NCBI GenBank assembly: GCA_947177175.1
Contig: CAMWTK010000005.1
Location: 1-64,000 of the forward strand
Length of the DNA stretch: 64,000 nt
Origin: an uncultured Treponema sp.
GTDB lineage: Bacteria > Spirochaetota > Spirochaetia > Treponematales > Treponemataceae
Direction of reading: 5' to 3'
Each line of letters starts with the position of its first letter. The first letter of the stretch is position 1. The position numbers and the translations under genes are program-made. The notes below the pieces were generated by a model. It was not told the origin of the DNA. It did no database searches and was given only the letters and a program-made list of their open reading frames with translations. Positions 21,123-55,265 of the stretch are shown piece after piece.

Positions 21123-22022
21123 TTACGCGCCCAATCCCAAAAATTTCTTCACTTCTTTGAGCCGCGCGTTTGCCGAACGAACGCCGTAATTATACGATTC
21201 GTCGATTTTTTCCGCCGAATTCTCAAACAGGCTGCACAGCACTTCCACCGGGTGGAACACCAACGCCTTTCCGCTGTCCTCAAGCGCCTTGAGCCGCGCT
21301 TCCTGCCGACAATAATTTTCGTAGCGGCTCATCAAGGCGCGGTACAAGTTGGGATATTTTTTCTTGTACATCGGCGAAAGCATGATGTCCCATTTCTTGA
21401 AGTCCGTCGGCCCGTCCCACGGCTCCTGCGTGGTAATGACGACCACTTTGTCGCAGCCCTGGTCAAACGCCCGCTCAAACGGCACGGAATCGGTCACGCA
21501 GCCGTCCGCGTAGAACATATCACCGATTTTTACGGGCGGAAACAGAATCGGCAGCGAACACGACGCGCATACGTGGTCGAGCAACAGCCGGTTGCGGCGG
21601 ATTTTCTGAATGAGCAACTTTTTTTCGGCAGAATCGTCCTGATCGCACCAGTACACCGTCCGCCCCGTATCGGCACACGTCGCGACGATCTCGCACCGCA
21701 CGTCCGACGAAAAGAATTTCTGGAAATGAAACGGATTCTTGCGGTCGAACGAATATTTGTAAATCATAAAGTGCATTTCTTTGAGAATGCCGTCACGCCA
21801 CAGCGCGCCGTTCTTGTGCGTCCGCTGCCGAATCGACTCCGGGGAAAGCACCTGTTTGAGCCGGCCTTTCTGCTCCGTCACATAATTCAACGCCGCATGC
21901 GCGCCCGCAGACACGCCGATGACATAATCAAAATGAAAGCGGTTTTCCAAAAAGACATCCAGAATGCCCGCCGTGAACAAGCCCTTGCGCGAGCCGCCTT
22001 CCAAAACAAGTCCATATTTCAC
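21123..22022 (-). CDS. Patatin-like phospholipase (YjjU-type)
   Basis: This 299-aa patatin-family serine lipase has the oxyanion loop EGGSRKG, nucleophile elbow GVSAG near residue 37, and the catalytic Asp in DGCVTDSVPF. It probably hydrolyses acyl chains from phospholipids at the inner membrane. The start is taken as GTG 22022: it overlaps the acyltransferase stop (GTGA) and has GGAG 8 nt upstream, whereas the alternative GTG at 22031 has no spacing for a ribosome site. It is the last gene of the FabZ, flavoprotein, acyltransferase, patatin series, which suggests lipid remodelling. Confidence 0.87.
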   Translation of the reverse strand: MKYGLVLEGGSRKGLFTAGILDVFLENRFHFDYVIGVSAGAHAALNYVTEQKGRLKQVLSPESIRQRTHKNGALWRDGILKEMHFMIYKYSFDRKNPFHFQKFFSSDVRCEIVATCADTGRTVYWCDQDDSAEKKLLIQKIRRNRLLLDHVCASCSLPILFPPVKIGDMFYADGCVTDSVPFERAFDQGCDKVVVITTQEPWDGPTDFKKWDIMLSPMYKKKYPNLYRALMSRYENYCRQEARLKALEDSGKALVFHPVEVLCSLFENSAEKIDESYNYGVRSANARLKEVKKFLGLGA

Positions 22023-22750
22023 TGCGCACACTCCGTTTCTGCCGCACCAAATTCGGGCGCGGGCGGCACCACGGCATATTCCGTTCCGGGCGCAGACAAA
22101 TCCGCAATGCCATGCCGCACCGCGCCTGCCTTGAGCAGTTTGACCCGCTCGCGCATTTGCGCCGACTGCCGCTCCAAATCCACGGAAGAAGGCACGCCTT
22201 TCGTCCGTCCAATATACTGCGGCACGTCCACCACATAATGAATGCGATGCCCGAACGTATAGATTCCGTCCAGACCGACGCAGACCACAGGAAATCCCGT
22301 ACTCCGCGCCAAAAACGCAAAGCCCGGCTTAAATTCGTTCAAATCCCCGTCCTCGCGGCACTTGCCTTCGGGGAAGATAATCACCGAGCGGCCTTTTTTC
22401 AGTTCTTTTTTGGCGAGCAACGCCCATTCCGTGTCCAGGTTAAAGCGGTCGCACGGGATGCCGTTCGCCGCGCGGCAAATCCAGTTGATGCCCGGCTTTT
22501 CGTACCAGTCTTTCGCAATGACGATTGCCGTTTTCCCGCGCAGCACCGACAGGATGAACGGCGGGTCAACAATCGTCGTGTGATTGGCAATCACAATGCA
22601 CGGCGTTCTGAGCCGGTTCGTCTGCACGTTCTTATCTACAAAATGCGCTTTGGGACGATACAGTACGTGCATATACAGCCACACCAGCACGATAGAGACT
22701 TTCCCGAACGCAACGAGCAGACCGTCAATCGCTCTCTTTATCAATCCCAT
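22019..22750 (-). CDS. 1-acyl-sn-glycerol-3-phosphate acyltransferase (PlsC-like)
   Basis: This membrane-associated acyltransferase has 243 aa. After an N-terminal hydrophobic helix come the catalytic HX4D motif in ANHTTIVDPP and the glycerol-phosphate motif FPEGKCREDG. It transfers an acyl chain to lysophosphatidic acid or a related acceptor. The frame is open further upstream, but the extra residues are the shadow of the flavoprotein gene; ATG 22750 lies inside the end of that gene and starts MGLIKRAIDG. It overlaps both neighbours, so it is part of a tight lipid operon. Confidence 0.87.
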   Translation of the reverse strand: MGLIKRAIDGLLVAFGKVSIVLVWLYMHVLYRPKAHFVDKNVQTNRLRTPCIVIANHTTIVDPPFILSVLRGKTAIVIAKDWYEKPGINWICRAANGIPCDRFNLDTEWALLAKKELKKGRSVIIFPEGKCREDGDLNEFKPGFAFLARSTGFPVVCVGLDGIYTFGHRIHYVVDVPQYIGRTKGVPSSVDLERQSAQMRERVKLLKAGAVRHGIADLSAPGTEYAVVPPAPEFGAAETECAQ

Positions 22751-23483
22751 GCAGCAGATACACTCCATTTGGCTTGCGCCACATCTTCTCATAAAACAGC
22801 TGATAGACCGAATCGGAGAACATCGGGCGCGCAAGGTACGCAATCGTCTTTTCGCTCACCGTGCCGGTCGCCGCGTACTCCTCGCCCGCTTTCTTGTAGT
22901 CCGCCTGCATCTTTGCCAGCCGCCGCCCGCCCGCGTGGTACACAATCGCATTCATCTGCGGTGTCGTGAGCGCAAGATAGCCGCCCTTTCCCAAAATCAT
23001 GTCCAGCTGGCTGAACACCGACGCATACACGACTTCTTTTTCAATCCAAGCACAGGACGAAATCAGCACGAACCGCTGCCCCGGATGCGGCTTGGTGAAT
23101 CCGTGCAGGGACGACCCGTCCGCAGGAATCGGCTTGCCGTAATACGGATTGACCATGCCGAGCAACCGGTCCATCATCACCTTGACCGTTCCCGGCAGCC
23201 CGAAAAAGAACAGCGGCGCGCACAGAATCACGATGTCCGCATCCTCAATTTTCTTGCGCACGGCAGGAATATCATCGTCCGTAATGACGCACGTCGCATC
23301 CTCACGCGCCCAGCACGTCAGGCAGCCGAGGCACGGCTTTATGTTCAGCGCGGAAATATGCACGGTCTCCGTCTCAAAATCGCCGTGCAAAGTCAGCCCG
23401 TCCAAAAACGCGCGCGCCAGCAACAGCGACCCGCTCCGCTCCTTTTTGGGACTTCCGTTCAGCAAAAGGATTTTTTCTGCCAT
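22725..23483 (-). CDS. Iron-sulfur flavoprotein / NAD(P)H oxidoreductase family
   Basis: This 252-aa flavodoxin-fold protein has an FMN phosphate loop (LLLNGSPKKERSGS) at the N-terminus, followed by a four-cysteine motif C-x2-C-x2-C-x7-C (residues about 51-65, CLGCLTC then C) that matches the 4Fe-4S site of archaeal-type iron-sulfur flavoproteins. It probably passes electrons singly or reduces an organic substrate. It starts one base inside the FabZ stop (TGATG) and its end overlaps the acyltransferase start. Placement within a lipid operon suggests a redox step on an acyl chain, but this is inference. Confidence 0.8.
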   Translation of the reverse strand: MAEKILLLNGSPKKERSGSLLLARAFLDGLTLHGDFETETVHISALNIKPCLGCLTCWAREDATCVITDDDIPAVRKKIEDADIVILCAPLFFFGLPGTVKVMMDRLLGMVNPYYGKPIPADGSSLHGFTKPHPGQRFVLISSCAWIEKEVVYASVFSQLDMILGKGGYLALTTPQMNAIVYHAGGRRLAKMQADYKKAGEEYAATGTVSEKTIAYLARPMFSDSVYQLFYEKMWRKPNGVYLLHGIDKESD

Positions 23484-23929
23484 CAGCGTTGTTCTACCGA
23501 TGCCTTGGGGATTGTCGTAAATGTCAGGCTTCCTTTCGCAAAAACCGCGTCGCCCACTTTCACCACCGCGTCAAACCCGACGAGCACGCCGCCGCCTTTC
23601 ATCTTTGTCACCGTAATCACCAGCTGATCGCCCGGAATCACCGGCTTGACAAACTTAAACCCGTCAATCTTGAGCAGCACATACAGATTATCGTTCAGCG
23701 CGTCCGCGTCTTTTTCAATCACGAGCGAACAAAGCTGCGCGCAACTCTCCACAATCAGAACGCCCGGCATAATCGGCGTACCGGGAAAATGCCCCATAAA
23801 ATACGGCTCGTTCACGCTCACGTTCTTAATGCCCGTCGCATGCTCGCCCGGTGTCAGCTCCAGCACCCGCTCAATCATCTGGAACGGCGGACGCTGCGCA
23901 ATCTTCTGACTGATTTCAAAAATATTCAT
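23483..23929 (-). CDS. fabZ: 3-hydroxyacyl-ACP dehydratase, FabZ-like
   Basis: This is a hot-dog fold dehydratase of 148 aa. The catalytic His and the following Glu helix are in FMGHFPGTPIMPGVLIVESC, the FabZ hallmark. It removes water from 3-hydroxyacyl-ACP in type II fatty-acid elongation. The ATG at 23929 has no ribosome site; a TATCAT box (23938-23943, minus strand) lies 8 nt upstream. It heads the operon with the flavoprotein, acyltransferase and patatin, and is separated from fabG and the ketosynthase by a repeat-rich gap. Confidence 0.92.
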   Translation of the reverse strand: MNIFEISQKIAQRPPFQMIERVLELTPGEHATGIKNVSVNEPYFMGHFPGTPIMPGVLIVESCAQLCSLVIEKDADALNDNLYVLLKIDGFKFVKPVIPGDQLVITVTKMKGGGVLVGFDAVVKVGDAVFAKGSLTFTTIPKASVEQR

Positions 23930-24237
23930 CAATATATATGATACAATGATTTTGCCGAATGTGCAACCAGTAACGCCCCGCAGGAATCACCATACCTCGA
24001 CGCAAGCATCGAGGTATGGTGTTCTCATAAGGTATCGCAGTCGGGTTTCATACCCTTTATTCCGACGCAAGCGTCGAGGTATGAAACCCTCCGCACGAAT
24101 CAGGGCGTCGCGGTCGCGACCCGCGCCCGCCGGGCTTTGCGCAGTTACGCTATCGCTCCATTCCTCCGCCCGCTTACGCGAGCTTCGGAACGCTCCGCGC
24201 TGCTCCAATCCCTAACGCATTGCCCCTCACTAAAAGC
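23930..24237. repeat. Repeat-rich intergenic gap between fabZ and fabG
   Basis: Two strong hairpins lie here. The first has 13-bp perfect arms (23988-24000 with 24009-24021, 8-nt loop CGCAAGCA). The second has 12-bp arms GGGTTTCATACC / GGTATGAAACCC (24043-24054, 24078-24089) with a nested stem GACGC-AA-GCGTC (24064-24075) in its loop. Both share the core GACGCAAGC[AG]TCGAGGTATG (first copy starting with C). A 23-bp string just after (24081-24103) recurs at 5363-5385. The rest (24104-24230) is GC-rich with no open gene. It looks like a dispersed intergenic element. Confidence 0.65.
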
Positions 24238-24261
24238 AAGCCCACACGCACGGGCTTTTTT
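24238..24261. terminator. Terminator after fabG
   Basis: AAGCCC (24238-24243) pairs with GGGCTT (24252-24257) around an 8-nt loop. On the minus strand the stem is followed by GCTTTT, directly at the fabG stop; the plus strand has a T6 run. Confidence 0.65.
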
Positions 24262-24991
24262 ACAACGACAGCCCGCCGTCCAACACAATCGTCTGCCCGG
24301 TCACGTAGGCAAACGCGTCCGACGCAAGCGCGCTCACCACGTTCGCCACGTCGTCCGCCGTGCCGAACCGACCGAGCGGCACGTTTTTGACATATTCGTC
24401 GCGCTTTTCCTGCGGAATCGCGTCAATCATTTCGGTCTGTATAAAACCGGGCGCGACCGCATTCACGCGGATTCCGTACCCGGCAAGTTCCTTAGCGAGC
24501 GTCTGCGTCAGCGAATTGACCGCGCCTTTGGTCGCGCTGTACACGCTCTGGCCGGGCAAGGCAAATTTGCTGCTGACCGAAGACATATTGATGATAACGC
24601 CGTGCTTCTGCTTGAACATCTTAAGCACCGCCGCCTGCGCGCAGTAGATATATCCCTTGATGTTCAGGTCAAGGCACTTGTCGAGCGTTTCGGGATTCAG
24701 CATGAGCAGGTACTCGTCGCGCACGATGCCCGCGTTGTTCACCAGCACGTCAATGCTGCCGTACTGCTTGTACACGTCGCGGAACATTTTTTTCACTTCG
24801 TCCAACTTGGAGACATCAGCCTTATACGCCATTGCCTCGCCGCCCGCCGCTTTGATTGCGTCCACCACGGCGGCAGCCTCTTCGTCCGAGCGGCTGCAAT
24901 TCACCACCACCGCAAATCCGTCCTTTGCCAGACGAACCGCGCAAGCCTTGCCGATTCCTTTTGACGAACCCGTCACTATCGCTACGTTCAT
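24260..24991 (-). CDS. fabG: 3-oxoacyl-ACP reductase (FabG-like SDR)
   Basis: This 243-aa short-chain dehydrogenase has the cofactor loop TGSSKGIGKA, NNAG, the Ser of INMSSVSS, and the catalytic YSATKGAVNSL (Y-x3-K). It reduces 3-oxoacyl-ACP with NADPH. ATG 24991 has AAGGA 8 nt upstream; longer in-frame sequence is inside the ketosynthase end. It starts 16 nt after the fused ketosynthase stop, so ACP, ketosynthase and FabG form one operon ending in a terminator at 24238-24261. Confidence 0.93.
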   Translation of the reverse strand: MNVAIVTGSSKGIGKACAVRLAKDGFAVVVNCSRSDEEAAAVVDAIKAAGGEAMAYKADVSKLDEVKKMFRDVYKQYGSIDVLVNNAGIVRDEYLLMLNPETLDKCLDLNIKGYIYCAQAAVLKMFKQKHGVIINMSSVSSKFALPGQSVYSATKGAVNSLTQTLAKELAGYGIRVNAVAPGFIQTEMIDAIPQEKRDEYVKNVPLGRFGTADDVANVVSALASDAFAYVTGQTIVLDGGLSL

Positions 24992-25007: not shown

Positions 25008-27389
25008 TTATTTTCCCAAAACGACTGCCGTATATGAGCCGCCGAGCGCAAAAGAAACCACGAGCACGTTTTTCAAATCCTTTGCGTCCAGATTTCTGCG
25101 CGTGACCGTGCCGTCCTTTGCAATGACAAACGCATTGTCGGCGGCAATGTCGCCGTGGAGCATGAGCGCGGCATGGGCAACCTGCAAGGCAGCCGTTCCC
25201 GCGCGTCCCTCGCCCACGCGCTCTTTTATGGCGATGACGGGCTTGTCCGCAAAATGCGCCGCCACCACGGATTTTTCGATGTCGTCCACTGCTTTCATGC
25301 CGTTCGCAAAGCCATACACCGCGTCAATGTCCGCCATGTCAAGCCCCGCGTCCGCAAGTGCGTCGGCAATCGCCGTTTCGAGCGCGTCGGCAGTGCCGGA
25401 AATCGCCCCGAACCGCACATTATGCCGCCCGTTACCGTAGCCCAAGATATGCGCGTACACGGTCGCCCCGCGCGACTGGGCGTTCGCGTCGTCTTCTAGA
25501 ACCAACGTCGTGCTTGCGTCGCCCAACACGAATCCGTCCGAGCCAGCATACGGAGCGACGACCGACTGCGCCTTGTAGCCCAGTTCGCTGAACAAGTTGT
25601 CAATAATCGGAATGTTCTCATCGTTGCCCGACGCGAGCATGATTTTTTCCTGCCCTTCCTTAATCACGTTCATTGCATACAGAATGCTCGTCAGACCGGA
25701 AACCGGGCCGCTCGTCACCGTGACGCTGTAGCCTTTTAAGCCGGAACAGATCGAAAGGTAGCCGCCCGCCGCATTGTACACGGTATTCGGGAATTTGAAC
25801 GCGCTCCCTTTTGCGTTGCCTTTTTCGCCAATCAGCTCCTCAAAATCATACGTCGAACCGAGCGCGCCCTCGCTCGTGCCCACGATATTACCGATGTCCT
25901 TTGCGTTCTCTTCGGTTACGGTCAGTTTTGCGTCCTTGAGCGCGCGCATACCCGTCACCACTTGCAGCTGACTGAAGTTGTCCAGCTTGCGGTAGAACGC
26001 CATCTTAATGCCCAGGTCGTCAAATTCGCTCGTCTCTATCGTAGAATGAATGCTTGTTTCCGTCGGCTTTGCGTCCGCCTTGACGGCAGCGATATATGCG
26101 TCTTTCGTGTGTCCCAGCGGATTGACAATGCCTAAGCCCGTAATCGCAATGCTCGGCTTTGCCTCGCTCGTCCTGACGTTCCCCGCCTGCTTGCTGAAAA
26201 TAATGCTCGCGTTGTTGCCGCCGAACGCGAACGAATTGCTCATCACGGCGGAAAGCTCTTTTGCATGCGGCACGTTCTGCACGAACTCGATATTCCCCGC
26301 CTTTTCCTTGAGTTTCGCTTTGTCTTCGTCCGAATAACCCAAGGTCGGAATGACGGTGTTCGTGGTCAGTGCCTTGACTGAGAACACGGCCTCAATCGCG
26401 CCCGCCGCGCCCAAACAATGCCCCGTCATCGCCTTGGTGGAGCTCGCGCTCAGATTGTCGTTCTCGCCGTCAAACACCGTATGCAGCGAAAGGAATTCGG
26501 CATTGTCGTTTTTTCCCGTACCCGTTCCGTGACCGTTCACATAGCCGATGTCTTTCTTTGCCACGCCGGAATTCGCAATGGCTCGTTCAATCGCCTCAAT
26601 CTGGCACAGACCGTCCTCGCGTGGCGCGGTAATATGGTGCGCGTCCGTCGTAATGCCCGCGCCGAGCACTTCGCAATACGTCTTTGCGCCGCGCGCCTTT
26701 GCATGTGTATATGACTCAACAATCACCACGCCCGCGCCTTCGCCCAGCGTAATGCCCGTGCAGCGGTTGAACGGCGAGCAGCCGTTTTCGTCCAGCGCAT
26801 GCAACGAAAGAAAACCCGAATACGGAATGGATGCGAACGAATCCGCGCCGCCGGCAATCACCACGTCAGCCTTGCCCGCGCGGATTAAATCGCAGGCGTA
26901 GGCAATGCTTATCGTTCCTGCCGCGCATGCGTTCGCCACGTTCGTCACAATGCCGCCCGCGCCCGCAAGCTCCGCCACCTGCGAAGCAATCGGCGCGATC
27001 GGCATTTTGAGAATGTCCGCCTTGTCCTTGCCGTGCTTGTAGTAATGCTCAATGCTTACCGCGCCGCCCACGCAGCTGCCGATAATCACGCTCACGCGCG
27101 GGTCGTCATTGCCCTTTGCCAGGCCGGAATCCGCCAACGCTTCTTTTGCGGCTTTCAGGCACAGTTTGGCAGCCCGATCCTTTTCTTCGGGCGCGTCAAT
27201 ATCGTCCAGCGTGTCGCAGCGCACTTCCGCGGCGAGCGTCGCGTAGCAGTTTGCCGTATCGACCGTCGTCGTCTGCCTGATGCCGGAAACCGACGCAAGC
27301 ACATTGTTCCATGATTCTTCCACGGAGTTCCCGATGGCACAAATCATGCCCAGCCCCGTCACCACACAGCGGTTTTTCTCTTCGGTCAT
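25008..27389 (-). CDS. Fused beta-ketoacyl-ACP synthase plus inactive KS domain (KS-CLF-like)
   Basis: This is a 793-aa protein of two KAS domains. Domain 1 (residues about 5-400) is a complete FabF-type condensing enzyme: Cys155 in NACAAG, His287 in NGHGTGTGKND and His324 in KAMTGHCLGAAG. Domain 2 (about 412-793) keeps the fold (TGLGIVNPLG at its start) but has lost the triad: the Cys site reads TVTSGPVSG near residue 560, the first His region is YGFANGMKAVDD and the second is IKERVGEGRAG. This is the layout of a KS-alpha/chain-length-factor heterodimer joined in one chain. AAGGAA lies 8 nt before the ATG. ACP is just upstream and FabG just downstream. Confidence 0.9.
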   Translation of the reverse strand: MTEEKNRCVVTGLGMICAIGNSVEESWNNVLASVSGIRQTTTVDTANCYATLAAEVRCDTLDDIDAPEEKDRAAKLCLKAAKEALADSGLAKGNDDPRVSVIIGSCVGGAVSIEHYYKHGKDKADILKMPIAPIASQVAELAGAGGIVTNVANACAAGTISIAYACDLIRAGKADVVIAGGADSFASIPYSGFLSLHALDENGCSPFNRCTGITLGEGAGVVIVESYTHAKARGAKTYCEVLGAGITTDAHHITAPREDGLCQIEAIERAIANSGVAKKDIGYVNGHGTGTGKNDNAEFLSLHTVFDGENDNLSASSTKAMTGHCLGAAGAIEAVFSVKALTTNTVIPTLGYSDEDKAKLKEKAGNIEFVQNVPHAKELSAVMSNSFAFGGNNASIIFSKQAGNVRTSEAKPSIAITGLGIVNPLGHTKDAYIAAVKADAKPTETSIHSTIETSEFDDLGIKMAFYRKLDNFSQLQVVTGMRALKDAKLTVTEENAKDIGNIVGTSEGALGSTYDFEELIGEKGNAKGSAFKFPNTVYNAAGGYLSICSGLKGYSVTVTSGPVSGLTSILYAMNVIKEGQEKIMLASGNDENIPIIDNLFSELGYKAQSVVAPYAGSDGFVLGDASTTLVLEDDANAQSRGATVYAHILGYGNGRHNVRFGAISGTADALETAIADALADAGLDMADIDAVYGFANGMKAVDDIEKSVVAAHFADKPVIAIKERVGEGRAGTAALQVAHAALMLHGDIAADNAFVIAKDGTVTRRNLDAKDLKNVLVVSFALGGSYTAVVLGK

Positions 27390-27431: not shown

Positions 27432-27674
27432 TTATGCGTTTGCGACGATATAATCCGCAATCGTATTGATGCTCAGGAACGTCTCTTTCGGAAGCCCCGT
27501 CATTGAAACGCCGTACTCGTCATCGGCAAAAGAAATGATTTCCAGCGAATCCACGGAATCCAAGCCGATTTCCTCACCGAACAGCGGCGTGTCGTACTGC
27601 AAAATATCGCCGTCAACGCCCAGATTTGACATAAAAAATTCCTTCAGCTTCGCCTGCACTTCAGTCTTTTCCAT
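27432..27674 (-). CDS. acpP: Acyl carrier protein
   Basis: This 80-aa acyl carrier protein has a phosphopantetheine attachment Ser40 in the motif GLDSVDSLE. It carries growing acyl chains between the ketosynthase, reductase and dehydratase. ATG 27674 has GGAG upstream; the extra in-frame residues before it are non-coding leader. It is the first gene of the ACP, ketosynthase fusion, FabG operon. A short hairpin (GTCCTT/AAGGAC, 27688-27705) lies just before its ribosome site. Confidence 0.93.
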   Translation of the reverse strand: MEKTEVQAKLKEFFMSNLGVDGDILQYDTPLFGEEIGLDSVDSLEIISFADDEYGVSMTGLPKETFLSINTIADYIVANA

Positions 27675-52289: not shown

Positions 52290-53030
52290 CTAGATTATGC
52301 CACCGTTCACGCCGATGACTTGCCGCGTAATATAGCCCGCCGCTTCGCTGAGCAGAAAGACCGCGAGCGCGGCGACCTCTTCGGGCTTTCCCGCACGACC
52401 CATGGGAATGGTCGGCAGGATATGCTCCGTGGGCGCGTCCTTGATCATCTCGGTTTCGATAATTCCGGGCGCAATGCAGTTCACGGTGATTTTCCGGCTG
52501 GCAAGCTCCACGGCGAGTGCCTTTGTCGCGCCGATGACTCCCGCCTTGCTCGCGCTGTAATTGACCTGCCCCCGATTGCCCATCACGCCGCTCACGCTCG
52601 AAATCGTGATAATCCGTCCGCGTTTTTTGCGGCACAGCGGCATGACAAGCGGCTTGAGTACATTATAGAATCCGTCCAAATTCGTGTGAATGACGCGATC
52701 CCAGTTGTCGTCGGTGAGCGCGGGAAACGCGTTGTCGGCGCAGATGCCCGCGTTGCAGACAATGCCCCAAAACGCGCCGTTCGCTTCGCTCCATGCCTCA
52801 AGTTTTGCGGCGCAGTCGGCACGGTCGCCCACATCAAACTGTATTGCCGTGGCCAAGCCGCCCGCCGCCGTAATCTCCGCGACCAATGCGTCAACGCTTG
52901 CTTTGCCACGGTTATAATGCGCCACCACCTCGTAGCCCGCCTGCGCCGCCGCAAGCGCAATCGCCCGCCCGATTCCGCCCGAAGCACCCGTGACCAGCAC
53001 TTTCTTTCCGTTCTGTCCGCCGTTTTCCAT
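52290..53030 (-). CDS. 3-oxoacyl-ACP reductase, aryl-polyene ApeQ-like
   Basis: This 246-aa short-chain dehydrogenase has the cofactor loop TGASGGIGRAIA, NAG in IVCNAGIC, Ser in ITISSVSG and the catalytic YSASKAGVIGATKAL. It reduces 3-oxoacyl-ACP. It is the last of a four-gene series (DUF3261-like lipoprotein, KS, DH, KR) whose order resembles the ApeN-O-P-Q core of aryl-polyene clusters. The start is 5 nt after the dehydratase stop, with GGAG upstream. A second FabG copy is at 24260. General FabG activity is sure; the specialised pathway is inferred. Confidence 0.88.
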   Translation of the reverse strand: MENGGQNGKKVLVTGASGGIGRAIALAAAQAGYEVVAHYNRGKASVDALVAEITAAGGLATAIQFDVGDRADCAAKLEAWSEANGAFWGIVCNAGICADNAFPALTDDNWDRVIHTNLDGFYNVLKPLVMPLCRKKRGRIITISSVSGVMGNRGQVNYSASKAGVIGATKALAVELASRKITVNCIAPGIIETEMIKDAPTEHILPTIPMGRAGKPEEVAALAVFLLSEAAGYITRQVIGVNGGII

Positions 53031-53035
53031 AGCGA

Positions 53036-53485
53036 TTATTGCTCCTCCCTTACTTCAAGCACCGTGAGCTTTCCGCTGCCGATTGCCGCACCGTCCACGC
53101 TGACATCTGCCACAAAGGTATACACGTTGCCCGCTTCGCCCGTCCGCTCCGCGCGGATGCTCACGACCTGCCCCGCCCTGACAATCGGTACGGAAAACGT
53201 GAGCGAGGACACGCTCAAGATAAATCCCATGCGCACGGGCAGATTATGCTCGCGCACCACAATGCCCGTCAGCGCGGAAATCGTCTGCGCAATAAACTCG
53301 AACAGCACATAATTCGGTATGCCGGAAGCCGCCTTGTCGTAGAACAGGCAGGATTCGCGCACGACCGTCTCAGAAGCAATGTTCCATGCCGCCGAATCGT
53401 AATCGGTAATGCGGTCGATCAAAAACATCTTGCCCTTGTGCGGCACAAGCGTTATCAGCTCGTCTTTTTCAATCACTCTGCCCAT
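53036..53485 (-). CDS. Hot-dog dehydratase, ApeP/FabA-like
   Basis: This 149-aa single hot-dog domain protein starts with VPHKGKMFLIDRI (His16), a pattern seen in the ApeI/ApeP and FabA-like 3-hydroxyacyl-ACP dehydratases, followed by the helix FEFIAQTISALTG. The GHFPG-type motif of FabZ is not present, which separates it from the FabZ at 23483. ATG 53485 overlaps the ketosynthase stop by one base (TAATG), with AGGGA upstream. The likely role is dehydration in a dedicated polyene or fatty-acyl pathway. Confidence 0.75.
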   Translation of the reverse strand: MGRVIEKDELITLVPHKGKMFLIDRITDYDSAAWNIASETVVRESCLFYDKAASGIPNYVLFEFIAQTISALTGIVVREHNLPVRMGFILSVSSLTFSVPIVRAGQVVSIRAERTGEAGNVYTFVADVSVDGAAIGSGKLTVLEVREEQ

Positions 53486-54684
53486 TATTCGTTTCCCTTG
53501 CCGTGGCGTTTGATAATCAAGCTCACGTTGCAGCCGCCGAACGCAAAACTGTTGCTCATGCAGCAGGCGATATGCCGTTGCGGCCGCGTGTCGGCAACAA
53601 AATTGAGGCGCGGGAAATCGTCGGCAAACACGCCGTCCCACACATGCACGGGCAGCCGCTGCCGCTGAATCGCCAGAAAACACGCCGCAAGCTCCAACGC
53701 GCCCGCCGCGCCGAGCGTGTGTCCCGTTATCGCCTTGGTGGAACTGACCGGGACGGCACGGGACGCGAACACGGCATCCACGGTCTTTGCTTCCATGCTG
53801 TCGTTCAGTTTTGTACCCGTGCCGTGCAGGTTCACATAATCGATGTCGTCCGCCGCAATGCCCGCGTCGTCCAAAGCCGCCCGCATTGCCTGCGCCGCAC
53901 CGCTGCCGTCCGCAAGGGGCGCGGTCATGTGGCTGGCATCGGAACTTTCGCCCGCACCGGCAAGCACGATGTCCGTATCGTCCAAATCGTCCTTGCTCAC
54001 CACAAAAAACGCCGCGCCTTCGCCCAACGTAATGCCCGCACGGTTCGCGCTAAAGGGATTTGTCTTTTCCGGGCTGATTGCCTCAAGACTATCAAAGCCG
54101 AGCAACGTCGTGGGAGAAGCGATGTCAACGCCACCGGCAATCACCGCGTCGCACACGCCCGCACGAATCAGCTGCCGCGCCGTAACGAGTGCCGTCGCGC
54201 TTGACGAACACGCCGTGGCAAAACTGAGCGAAACGCCCGTCACGCCGAATTTCCGCGCCGCGAATGCCGCCGGATAATCCGCGCCCTGCACGGCAAGAGC
54301 GTAGCCCGCCGGAAACGCGCCGTCCGTCCACAGTGCGCGGTGTCCTTCAAACGAACGCGCCGAGCCGTTGTCGCACTGCCCCACGCACACGCCGATCCTG
54401 TCCGCGCCGTACCGCGCCATGGCAGCCGACACGACCGGGGCAAGCTGCGCGAGCGCGCCGTCCAAAATCTGCAAGACGCGCATGTCGTACTTGTCGCCGG
54501 TCGGACGCAACACGCCTTGGGCAATCTGCCCCGCCCCAAAGGAACGTTCGTTTCCGTCGCCGTCCGTGCCGCACGAAACGCGCACCAAGCCGGAGCGGTC
54601 GCCCGCCACAAGCGCGTCAAAAAATGCCGCCGCGCCACTGCCCGCACTGCACAGCACCGCCGGGCGCGAAAGATAGGCTTGCAT
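53485..54684 (-). CDS. Beta-ketoacyl-ACP synthase, ApeO-like
   Basis: This 399-aa condensing enzyme has an intact triad: Cys159 in FATACSSSA, His287 in LHGTGTKLND, and His322 in TKAITGHTLGAAG. The N-terminal region is divergent from FabF, as in ApeO-type ketosynthases. It starts one base inside the lipoprotein stop (TGATG) and ends one base into the dehydratase start, so the three are tightly coupled. It differs from the KS fusion at 25008 by having one domain only. Confidence 0.9.
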   Translation of the reverse strand: MQAYLSRPAVLCSAGSGAAAFFDALVAGDRSGLVRVSCGTDGDGNERSFGAGQIAQGVLRPTGDKYDMRVLQILDGALAQLAPVVSAAMARYGADRIGVCVGQCDNGSARSFEGHRALWTDGAFPAGYALAVQGADYPAAFAARKFGVTGVSLSFATACSSSATALVTARQLIRAGVCDAVIAGGVDIASPTTLLGFDSLEAISPEKTNPFSANRAGITLGEGAAFFVVSKDDLDDTDIVLAGAGESSDASHMTAPLADGSGAAQAMRAALDDAGIAADDIDYVNLHGTGTKLNDSMEAKTVDAVFASRAVPVSSTKAITGHTLGAAGALELAACFLAIQRQRLPVHVWDGVFADDFPRLNFVADTRPQRHIACCMSNSFAFGGCNVSLIIKRHGKGNE

Positions 54685-55265
54685 CAGAACGCGCCCTGCA
54701 ACAGATAGGAATACCCGCGCAAGACATTCGTATACGCAATCGTATCCGCAGATTTTTCTATATGAATGATCTCGCGGTCGCCGTCAAAAATGCCGCGCGT
54801 CTCGCCGCCGTCCGCAGCAGAAACCTCAAGGCACAGACCAATCGCCTCAAGTGCCGCGCGCACCGCGTCCGCGCGGTACAGGCAGAACTGCACATCCGCC
54901 ACAATGTATTCCGCCTCGACCGCCGACGGAAACAACGCCGTATTGAACACGACCAAATCATTGTTGTAATTCAGCTCGCCCACCGTCGTGCCGAATTCAT
55001 TGAGCATCGTCAGCGAAAGTACGTCGCCGTCGGCAATCAGCAGGCAGTCCGACTCAAACGCCCGCGCGCCGAACGTTGCCGTAATGTGCTGCACGGCATC
55101 AACGTCTTTTTCGCGCAGTGCCGTGGGCAACAGCTGAAACGTCGCCTTGTCCGTCACGTACACGGGATTAAGTTTTGCCCCCGCCGCGCCTTTTGCCGAG
55201 CCGCAGGAAAGCACCACGCCACACGCCGCCACGAGCAGCAGCACGATAGTCTGTCTCCGCATCAT
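54684..55265 (-). CDS. DUF3261-like lipoprotein (ApeN-like)
   Basis: This 193-aa protein has a lipoprotein signal: MMRRQTIVLLLVAAC then LSCG, so the acylated Cys is 15 or 21. The mature part has a LLPTALREKD motif, a VLSLTMLNEFGTTVGELNYNN region and a late VADVQFCLYRADAV strand-helix, matching my recollection of DUF3261, the outer-membrane lipoprotein encoded in aryl-polyene loci. Proteins of this family are thought to help place the lipid product in the outer membrane. It lies 12 nt after the unknown gene stop. DUF3261 membership is a strong impression, not a profile result. Confidence 0.65.
   Translation of the reverse strand: MMRRQTIVLLLVAACGVVLSCGSAKGAAGAKLNPVYVTDKATFQLLPTALREKDVDAVQHITATFGARAFESDCLLIADGDVLSLTMLNEFGTTVGELNYNNDLVVFNTALFPSAVEAEYIVADVQFCLYRADAVRAALEAIGLCLEVSAADGGETRGIFDGDREIIHIEKSADTIAYTNVLRGYSYLLQGAF

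Follow-up and report, generated by a model that had tools for sequence, protein, structure and literature searches.

Which function can be assigned to a gene that joins, in one reading frame, an intact ketosynthase (KS) and a catalytically dead one? This question is raised by a locus in a 64,000-nucleotide stretch of DNA from an uncultured Treponema sp. (hereafter the window). Our analysis favours, with a probability of about 60%, a single-chain ketosynthase-chain length factor (KS-CLF) that condenses on a dedicated acyl carrier protein (ACP) and whose unsaturated chain is probably moved to lipid by a PlsC-type acyltransferase.

One intact and one lost catalytic triad

The KS-CLF gene occupies window positions 25008-27389 on the minus strand and consists of a single uninterrupted ATG-to-stop frame of 793 aa, an assignment based on Pfam, homologues and predicted fold. 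The first-pass annotation had the coordinates and motifs right and omitted the strand. Pfam recognizes two KS stretches (PF00109, 6e-49; PF02801, 1e-38) and no domain other than KS along the 793-aa chain, and the full-length protein scores 466.7 against the TIGR03150 fabF model, below its cut-off of 493.75. Whereas a housekeeping FabF is a homodimer (~410 aa) with two active sites, the 793-aa KS-CLF has one. The N half (residues 1-406; 26172..27389, minus strand) is a catalytic FabF-like KS that matches Bacillus subtilis FabF (4ls5) at 6e-77 and carries the triad earlier ascribed to it, Cys155 (NACAAG), His287 (NGHGTG) and His324 (TGHCLG). In the C half (residues 407-793; 25011..26171, minus strand), a CLF-like dead KS, the places of the FabF catalytic Cys, His and His are taken by Pro562 (TSGPVSG), Phe694 (YGFANG) and Glu727 (VGEGRAG), as had been claimed. 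This half aligns with E. coli FabF at 8e-33 when searched alone with phmmer, and a profile of seven sequences aligns with FabF at 1e-50 along the entire half; in both alignments the FabF triad falls on these three residues, and no triad displaced to another part of the C half was found.

This division is maintained across the 28 loci of our conservation set (the window, the Lachnospira eligens locus L052, and L104-L129). In the N half, Cys and the first His are retained in 28/28 loci and the second His in 27/28, L104 having an ambiguous base at that site. In contrast, all 28 C halves lack a Cys at the aligned column, where Pro, Ala, Ser, Met or Gly is found instead, and lack both His residues, the position of the second being occupied by Glu (Glu727 in the window) in every case. 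Between the window and L. eligens, the N halves are 74% and the C halves 56% identical. For the one pair on which dN/dS rests, the window and L105, the ratio is ~0.03 (0.017/0.579) for the N half and ~0.10 (0.063/0.621) for the C half, dS being saturated or undefined in the other pairs compared. The C-half value indicates that the dead half is under purifying selection; judged from these sequences, it appears to evolve faster than the N half yet is clearly constrained.

Predicted structure

An AlphaFold2 model of all 793 residues reached a mean pLDDT of 87.7 and a pTM of 0.92, using an alignment of 46 rows composed of 11 fused proteins and 35 single ketosynthases of full length, out of 50 taken from viral-labelled contigs. 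In a trial alignment the added single ketosynthases all aligned to the N half, so that the C half of the model is backed by 11 rows. A model from the 11 fused proteins alone (pLDDT 49.2, pTM 0.47) was set aside, and L053 was omitted from both alignments because of its ambiguous bases. With the whole predicted chain as query, the top PDB match in Foldseek was 6RIW, the PfaC keto synthase-chain length factor (E 2e-52, TMq 0.80, rmsd 7.2 Å, 18% identity), and single FabF or KS chains reached a TMq of ~0.47 at most, i.e. one half. Since the model matches 6RIW over its full length, the best reading is that the two halves are predicted to pair inside the chain as a KS-CLF pseudo-dimer, a prediction limited by the fact that the network may have remembered ketosynthase dimers of the PDB. 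VIA-align gave Z scores of ~55 (53-55) for the N half against FabF, the ishigamide KS 6KXD and actinorhodin 1TQY; its best 50 rows span residues 1-405 only, do not include 6RIW and are therefore silent on the C half. Residues, trees (see below) and the predicted whole-chain pseudo-dimer all back the KS-alpha plus chain-length-factor composition first read from the sequence, and the pseudo-dimer is the intramolecular arrangement that a full-chain prediction had been expected to reveal or refuse.

A conserved cassette

In the window the cassette runs, all on the minus strand, ACP, KS-CLF, FabG and FabZ, followed by flavodoxin-like, PlsC-type and patatin-like genes. The KS-CLF gene indeed lies, as first described, between an ACP gene immediately upstream and fabG immediately downstream. 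The dedicated ACP (27432..27674) comprises 80 aa from an internal ATG, the open ORF extending to 27800; it matches PF00550 at 6e-06, has the attachment motif DSVDSLE and 80-aa homologues, and falls under every ACP cut-off, i.e. it is non-AcpP-like. The ketoreductase, a FabG-like SDR (24260..24991; PF13561, 1e-65), scores 264 bits with TIGR01830 against a cut-off of 298, and its start is likely at 24991, within an open ORF that extends to 25051. A FabZ-type 3-hydroxyacyl-ACP dehydratase (23483..23932; PF07977, 1e-26; NF000582 above cut-off) precedes a flavodoxin/FMN-reductase-like protein (22725..23483; PF03358, 4e-17) with a CxxC...C motif (GCLTCWAREDATC). Next come a PlsC-type acyltransferase (22019..22843, start uncertain; HTTIVD, FPEG; PF01553, 8e-23) and a patatin-like protein with DUF6363 (21123..22031; PF01734, 1e-20). 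The latter is loosely tied to the cassette, a homologue being found in at least 11 of the 27 non-cyl loci. Neither an aromatic-starter gene nor an exporter was found in the window cassette.

Neighbourhoods were counted in these 27 non-cyl loci, namely all of the 28 but L126, and the counts are lower bounds because contig ends truncate some loci. An ACP gene lies directly upstream of the KS-CLF in 27/27, and FabG and FabZ lie downstream in at least 25/27; in L122 and L123 they are ~1.7-1.8 kb downstream, with another gene between, and L107 and L111 have ACP and KS-CLF without FabG or FabZ nearby. By eye, ABC-transporter-like genes come after these two genes in L107. Homologues of the flavodoxin-like protein are nearby in at least 20/27 loci and of the PlsC-like protein in at least 18/27, and the ACP attachment motif DS[VI]D[SA]LE is present in 28/28. 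Additional genes accompany some loci. FabD and carboxyltransferase-type genes occur in at least 4/27 (L052, L117, L124 and L125), L117 has an AcpS-type PPTase, and L127 a PPTase and a second ACP; the FabD, carboxyltransferase and PPTase genes point to a malonyl-based synthesis that is separate from housekeeping. In L125 there are also an AMP-binding ligase, another ACP and another acyltransferase. Next to its cassette, L123 has an acyl-ACP-thioesterase-like gene, which fits release of a free acid better than transfer to lipid. In L118, an amine-oxidase/desaturase-like flavoprotein (PF01593; 3667-5193) adjoins the PlsC-like gene. Elsewhere in the window's own genome, contig 13 encodes a separate FabF with FabD-like, SDR and FabZ-like frames (by eye).

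Distribution of the fusion

The survey of spirochaete genomes proposed in the first-pass annotation covered 200 genomes of the window's genus; at 1e-30 the C half was matched in 21 of them (the window's own included), always in open frames of 793-847 codons. In this and the following genome searches, scoring was limited to some candidates per genome, 4-9 for the larger genomes, and absences are therefore to be read as lower bounds. Among named records, close matches came from Treponema sp. of goat reticulum, roe deer omasum and other samples, and from two plasmid records of Lachnospira eligens (C half 55.8% identical), where a finished megaplasmid carries the fusion. In the order of genome G482, five of 392 genomes matched, three with the fused form (G482 included) and two with single ketosynthases; in a phylum sample around G482, 13 of 398 matched, two fused (G482 and G1065) and 11 single. 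A spirochaete phylum sample of 296 genomes contained, among the matches listed, no close homologue besides the window's own. The patchy distribution across two phyla suggests that gene transfer lies behind the spread.

More distant single-chain KS-KS proteins are encoded in two genomes of the spirochaete phylum. One, of 816 aa and on a long branch, belongs to another spirochaete of the window's order (G053, L221 6507-8957) and is surrounded, by eye, by SDR, FabZ-like, thioesterase-like and FabD-like frames. The other genome (G245, L222 6412-15096) has two such proteins (882 and 871 aa) together with two more KS-like genes, an SDR and a GcvT-like frame (by eye), which possibly form a cyl-like cluster. 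Searching viral contigs with the C-half alignment turned up no relative. Ketosynthase genes are present on viral-labelled contigs of ~129-364 kb (L166, L179, L195, L208, L209), which could be mislabelled host DNA or belong to large phages that carry FAS-like genes.

Family history

Three trees were built with 18/30, 13/30 and 13/33 of the single-chain proteins, hand-picked to remove near copies; the second additionally went without L135_KSb, L082 and L026, and the third retained 17 single ketosynthases. ApeC (240 aa as annotated) was omitted as too short and L064 for want of a usable frame. The trees have long branches, were midpoint-rooted for drawing and do not contain PfaC. In all three, the C halves fall into one group (100/100, 100/99 and 100/99), and the N halves group with ApeO and a second KS of the window (98/94, 95/93 and 95/92). 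The C-half clade (100/99) takes in the second halves of granadaene-type, Streptomyces and other spirochaete single-chain homologues. Outside lie the KS/CLF pairs of Streptomyces and Apilactobacillus. Within this framework the KS-CLF family of the window is a separate clade (100/100), whose nearest relatives are the granadaene-type single-chain KS and ApeO. The simplest reading of these trees, PfaC not being in them, is one old fused family; they suggest that the single-chain KS-CLFs found in several dissociated systems of polyene type did not arise as scattered fusions. As a candidate ancestor, the unfused KS pair of spirochaete G154 was rejected, its second KS retaining Cys and falling outside the C-half clade.

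The second KS of the window belongs to a set of genes at 52290-55265 (minus strand) that encodes a DUF3261 protein, the KS with an intact triad, a short protein and an SDR. The short protein, at the dehydratase position, has no Pfam match. These genes are ordered like the end of the aryl polyene cluster of Cedecea (L132), ApeO is the partner of the KS in the tree, and the set is an aryl-polyene-like remnant or part of a split cluster. On contig 10 of the same genome (37095-37832; L002, L131), a ketosynthase that groups with ApeR (100/100 in two trees) has, by eye, no obvious APE genes around it.

Proposed function and alternatives

We propose that the N half would condense malonyl-ACP with the growing acyl chain on the dedicated ACP, while the dead C half would complete the ketosynthase pseudo-dimer and shape the acyl pocket. 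The cassette FabG and FabZ would reduce, and then dehydrate, every added unit. Given a cassette in which no enoyl reductase was seen, the chain would probably be left unsaturated, as polyenoyl-ACP, and the PlsC-type acyltransferase would probably pass it to a lipid acceptor; with a PlsC-type gene at hand, attachment to lipid is plausible. From the sequences, control of chain length by the C half is plausible as well, and the flavodoxin-like protein may have a role in the pathway. With relatives in polyene systems and no enoyl reductase seen in the cassette, a conjugated chain is the likeliest product, at about even odds. Counting against the proposal are L107 and L111, which have no FabG or FabZ nearby, the thioesterase-like gene of L123, and a window cassette in which neither an aromatic-starter gene nor an exporter occurs. 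The fuller proposal, in which the KS-CLF of treponemes and Lachnospiraceae makes a conjugated polyene that PlsC attaches to a membrane lipid and in which the pathway spread by interphylum transfer, is put forward tentatively. If true, it would define an uncharacterised polyene-lipid pathway common to rumen and gut treponemes and to Lachnospiraceae, including the human commensal L. eligens. What the cassette probably represents is an unexplored lipid pathway of abundant gut anaerobes, patchy in Treponema and Lachnospiraceae. In addition, the protein is a naturally tethered KS-CLF with a fixed 1:1 ratio of active to dead halves, which makes the role of the dead half testable without mixing subunits.

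The product could also be saturated if FabV acted in trans. In this regard, the same KS-CLF might serve as a specialised fatty-acid elongase whose saturated or lightly unsaturated acyl chain reaches membrane phospholipid via PlsC/PlsX. FabV is encoded in the window's genome, the cassette contains a full FabZ and FabG, PlsC-like neighbours are frequent and PlsX is present in the L. eligens cassette. FabV lies away from the cassette, however, and queries with FabV and one FabK-like protein found no gene of either kind across the 28 loci; moreover, the ACP is separate and non-AcpP-like, and the closest tree neighbours come from polyene systems, so that we regard an elongase as rather unlikely.

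The remaining alternatives concern the dead half itself. It could be a structural dimer partner that neither sets chain length nor touches substrate, as a CLF-like fold is no proof of length control on its own and the C half diverges faster than the N half; its low dN/dS and the conservation of residues around the lost active site, such as the invariant Glu727, make this improbable. Dead KS halves in which Cys is replaced can also prime through decarboxylation, and the C half might thus act as a KSQ-like malonyl-ACP decarboxylase. KSQ domains have Gln in place of Cys and retain both His, however, and with Gln at the Cys position in 0/28 loci and both His missing throughout, such a function is very hard to credit. 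Finally, the assembly behind the window is a draft of 111 contigs, and the chain might have been an assembly artefact or a decaying fabF duplicate. The recurrence of the fused frame in independent genomes (21/200 in the genus, the finished L. eligens plasmids and other lineages) refutes the artefact, and purifying selection on both halves argues against decay. Taken together, these considerations leave the single-chain KS-CLF with a dedicated ACP as our preferred reading.

Comparison with known systems

The first-pass annotation regarded KS and CLF as usually two proteins. Separate KS and CLF are indeed commoner than the fusion, but single-chain versions are known elsewhere and the arrangement is not in itself unusual. 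As described in PMC3098273, PfaC and HglC have KS and then CLF within one chain, and the KS-CLF didomains of PUFA synthases are the best-studied single-chain precedent (PMC3098273, PMC9702510). Like the window protein, PfaC (6RIW) is a KS-then-CLF chain with a dead second half and, by comparison with our predicted model, the same whole-chain arrangement. As parts of a type I megasynthase, however, PfaC has additional DH domains and HglC an additional AT domain, whereas the window protein is free-standing, with two domains, discrete ACP, KR and DH, and 18% identity to 6RIW; its 793 aa hold KS only, and PfaC-type DH domains after the KS-CLF are absent.

Among dissociated systems, granadaene-type and aryl polyene clusters are described as polyene systems (PMC6985545, PMC8253772). 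The L126 locus (G1065) contains FabD, FabG, ACP, FabZ, a GcvT-like gene, a single-chain KS and AcpS, a core shared by Priestia megaterium plasmid pBMG6 (L134), and both resemble the cyl/granadaene operon that PMC6985545 describes. The granadaene/cyl-type KS has in common with the window protein its ~800 aa, an intact N triad and a dead C half; both kinds of locus have discrete ACP, FabG, FabZ and FabD (the last in at least 4/27 non-cyl loci), and the halves fall in the same clades. By half, however, L126 and the window are 26-36% identical, cyl-type clusters carry a GcvT-like gene, and no flavodoxin or PlsC homologue was matched beside L126. Conversely, a Pfam scan of the seven cassette proteins gave no match to the cyl hallmarks GcvT-like CylF, CylE N-acyltransferase and ABC exporter. 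In the fun cluster of L. reuteri, a fusion can be surmised for the ketosynthase FunB from its length of 798 aa in PMC6498181, where both L. reuteri clusters are said to be without enoyl reductase and hence to yield conjugated products. A Streptomyces plasmid encodes a further single-chain homologue, of 788 aa.

The best-studied dissociated precedent is aryl polyene ApeO/ApeC (PMC8253772), in which, as in the window, a FabF-like KS and a CLF partner occur with KR and DH; the description in that source names no ER for the cluster. ApeO and ApeC are separate proteins, whereas the window chain is fused, and the window cassette, unlike aryl polyene clusters, is without ligase, MMPL or LolA genes. 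Type II PKS KS/CLF (actinorhodin 1TQY, ishigamide 6KXD) likewise combine an active KS with a dead partner, but as separate chains, and the Streptomyces CLF examined falls outside the C-half group. Our search of one library of open-access literature, subscription papers being outside its scope, brought up no named family for fused KS-CLFs of the window type. In sum, the branch that the window shares with L. eligens looks uncharacterised, and the single-chain design on which it is built is known from other bacteria.
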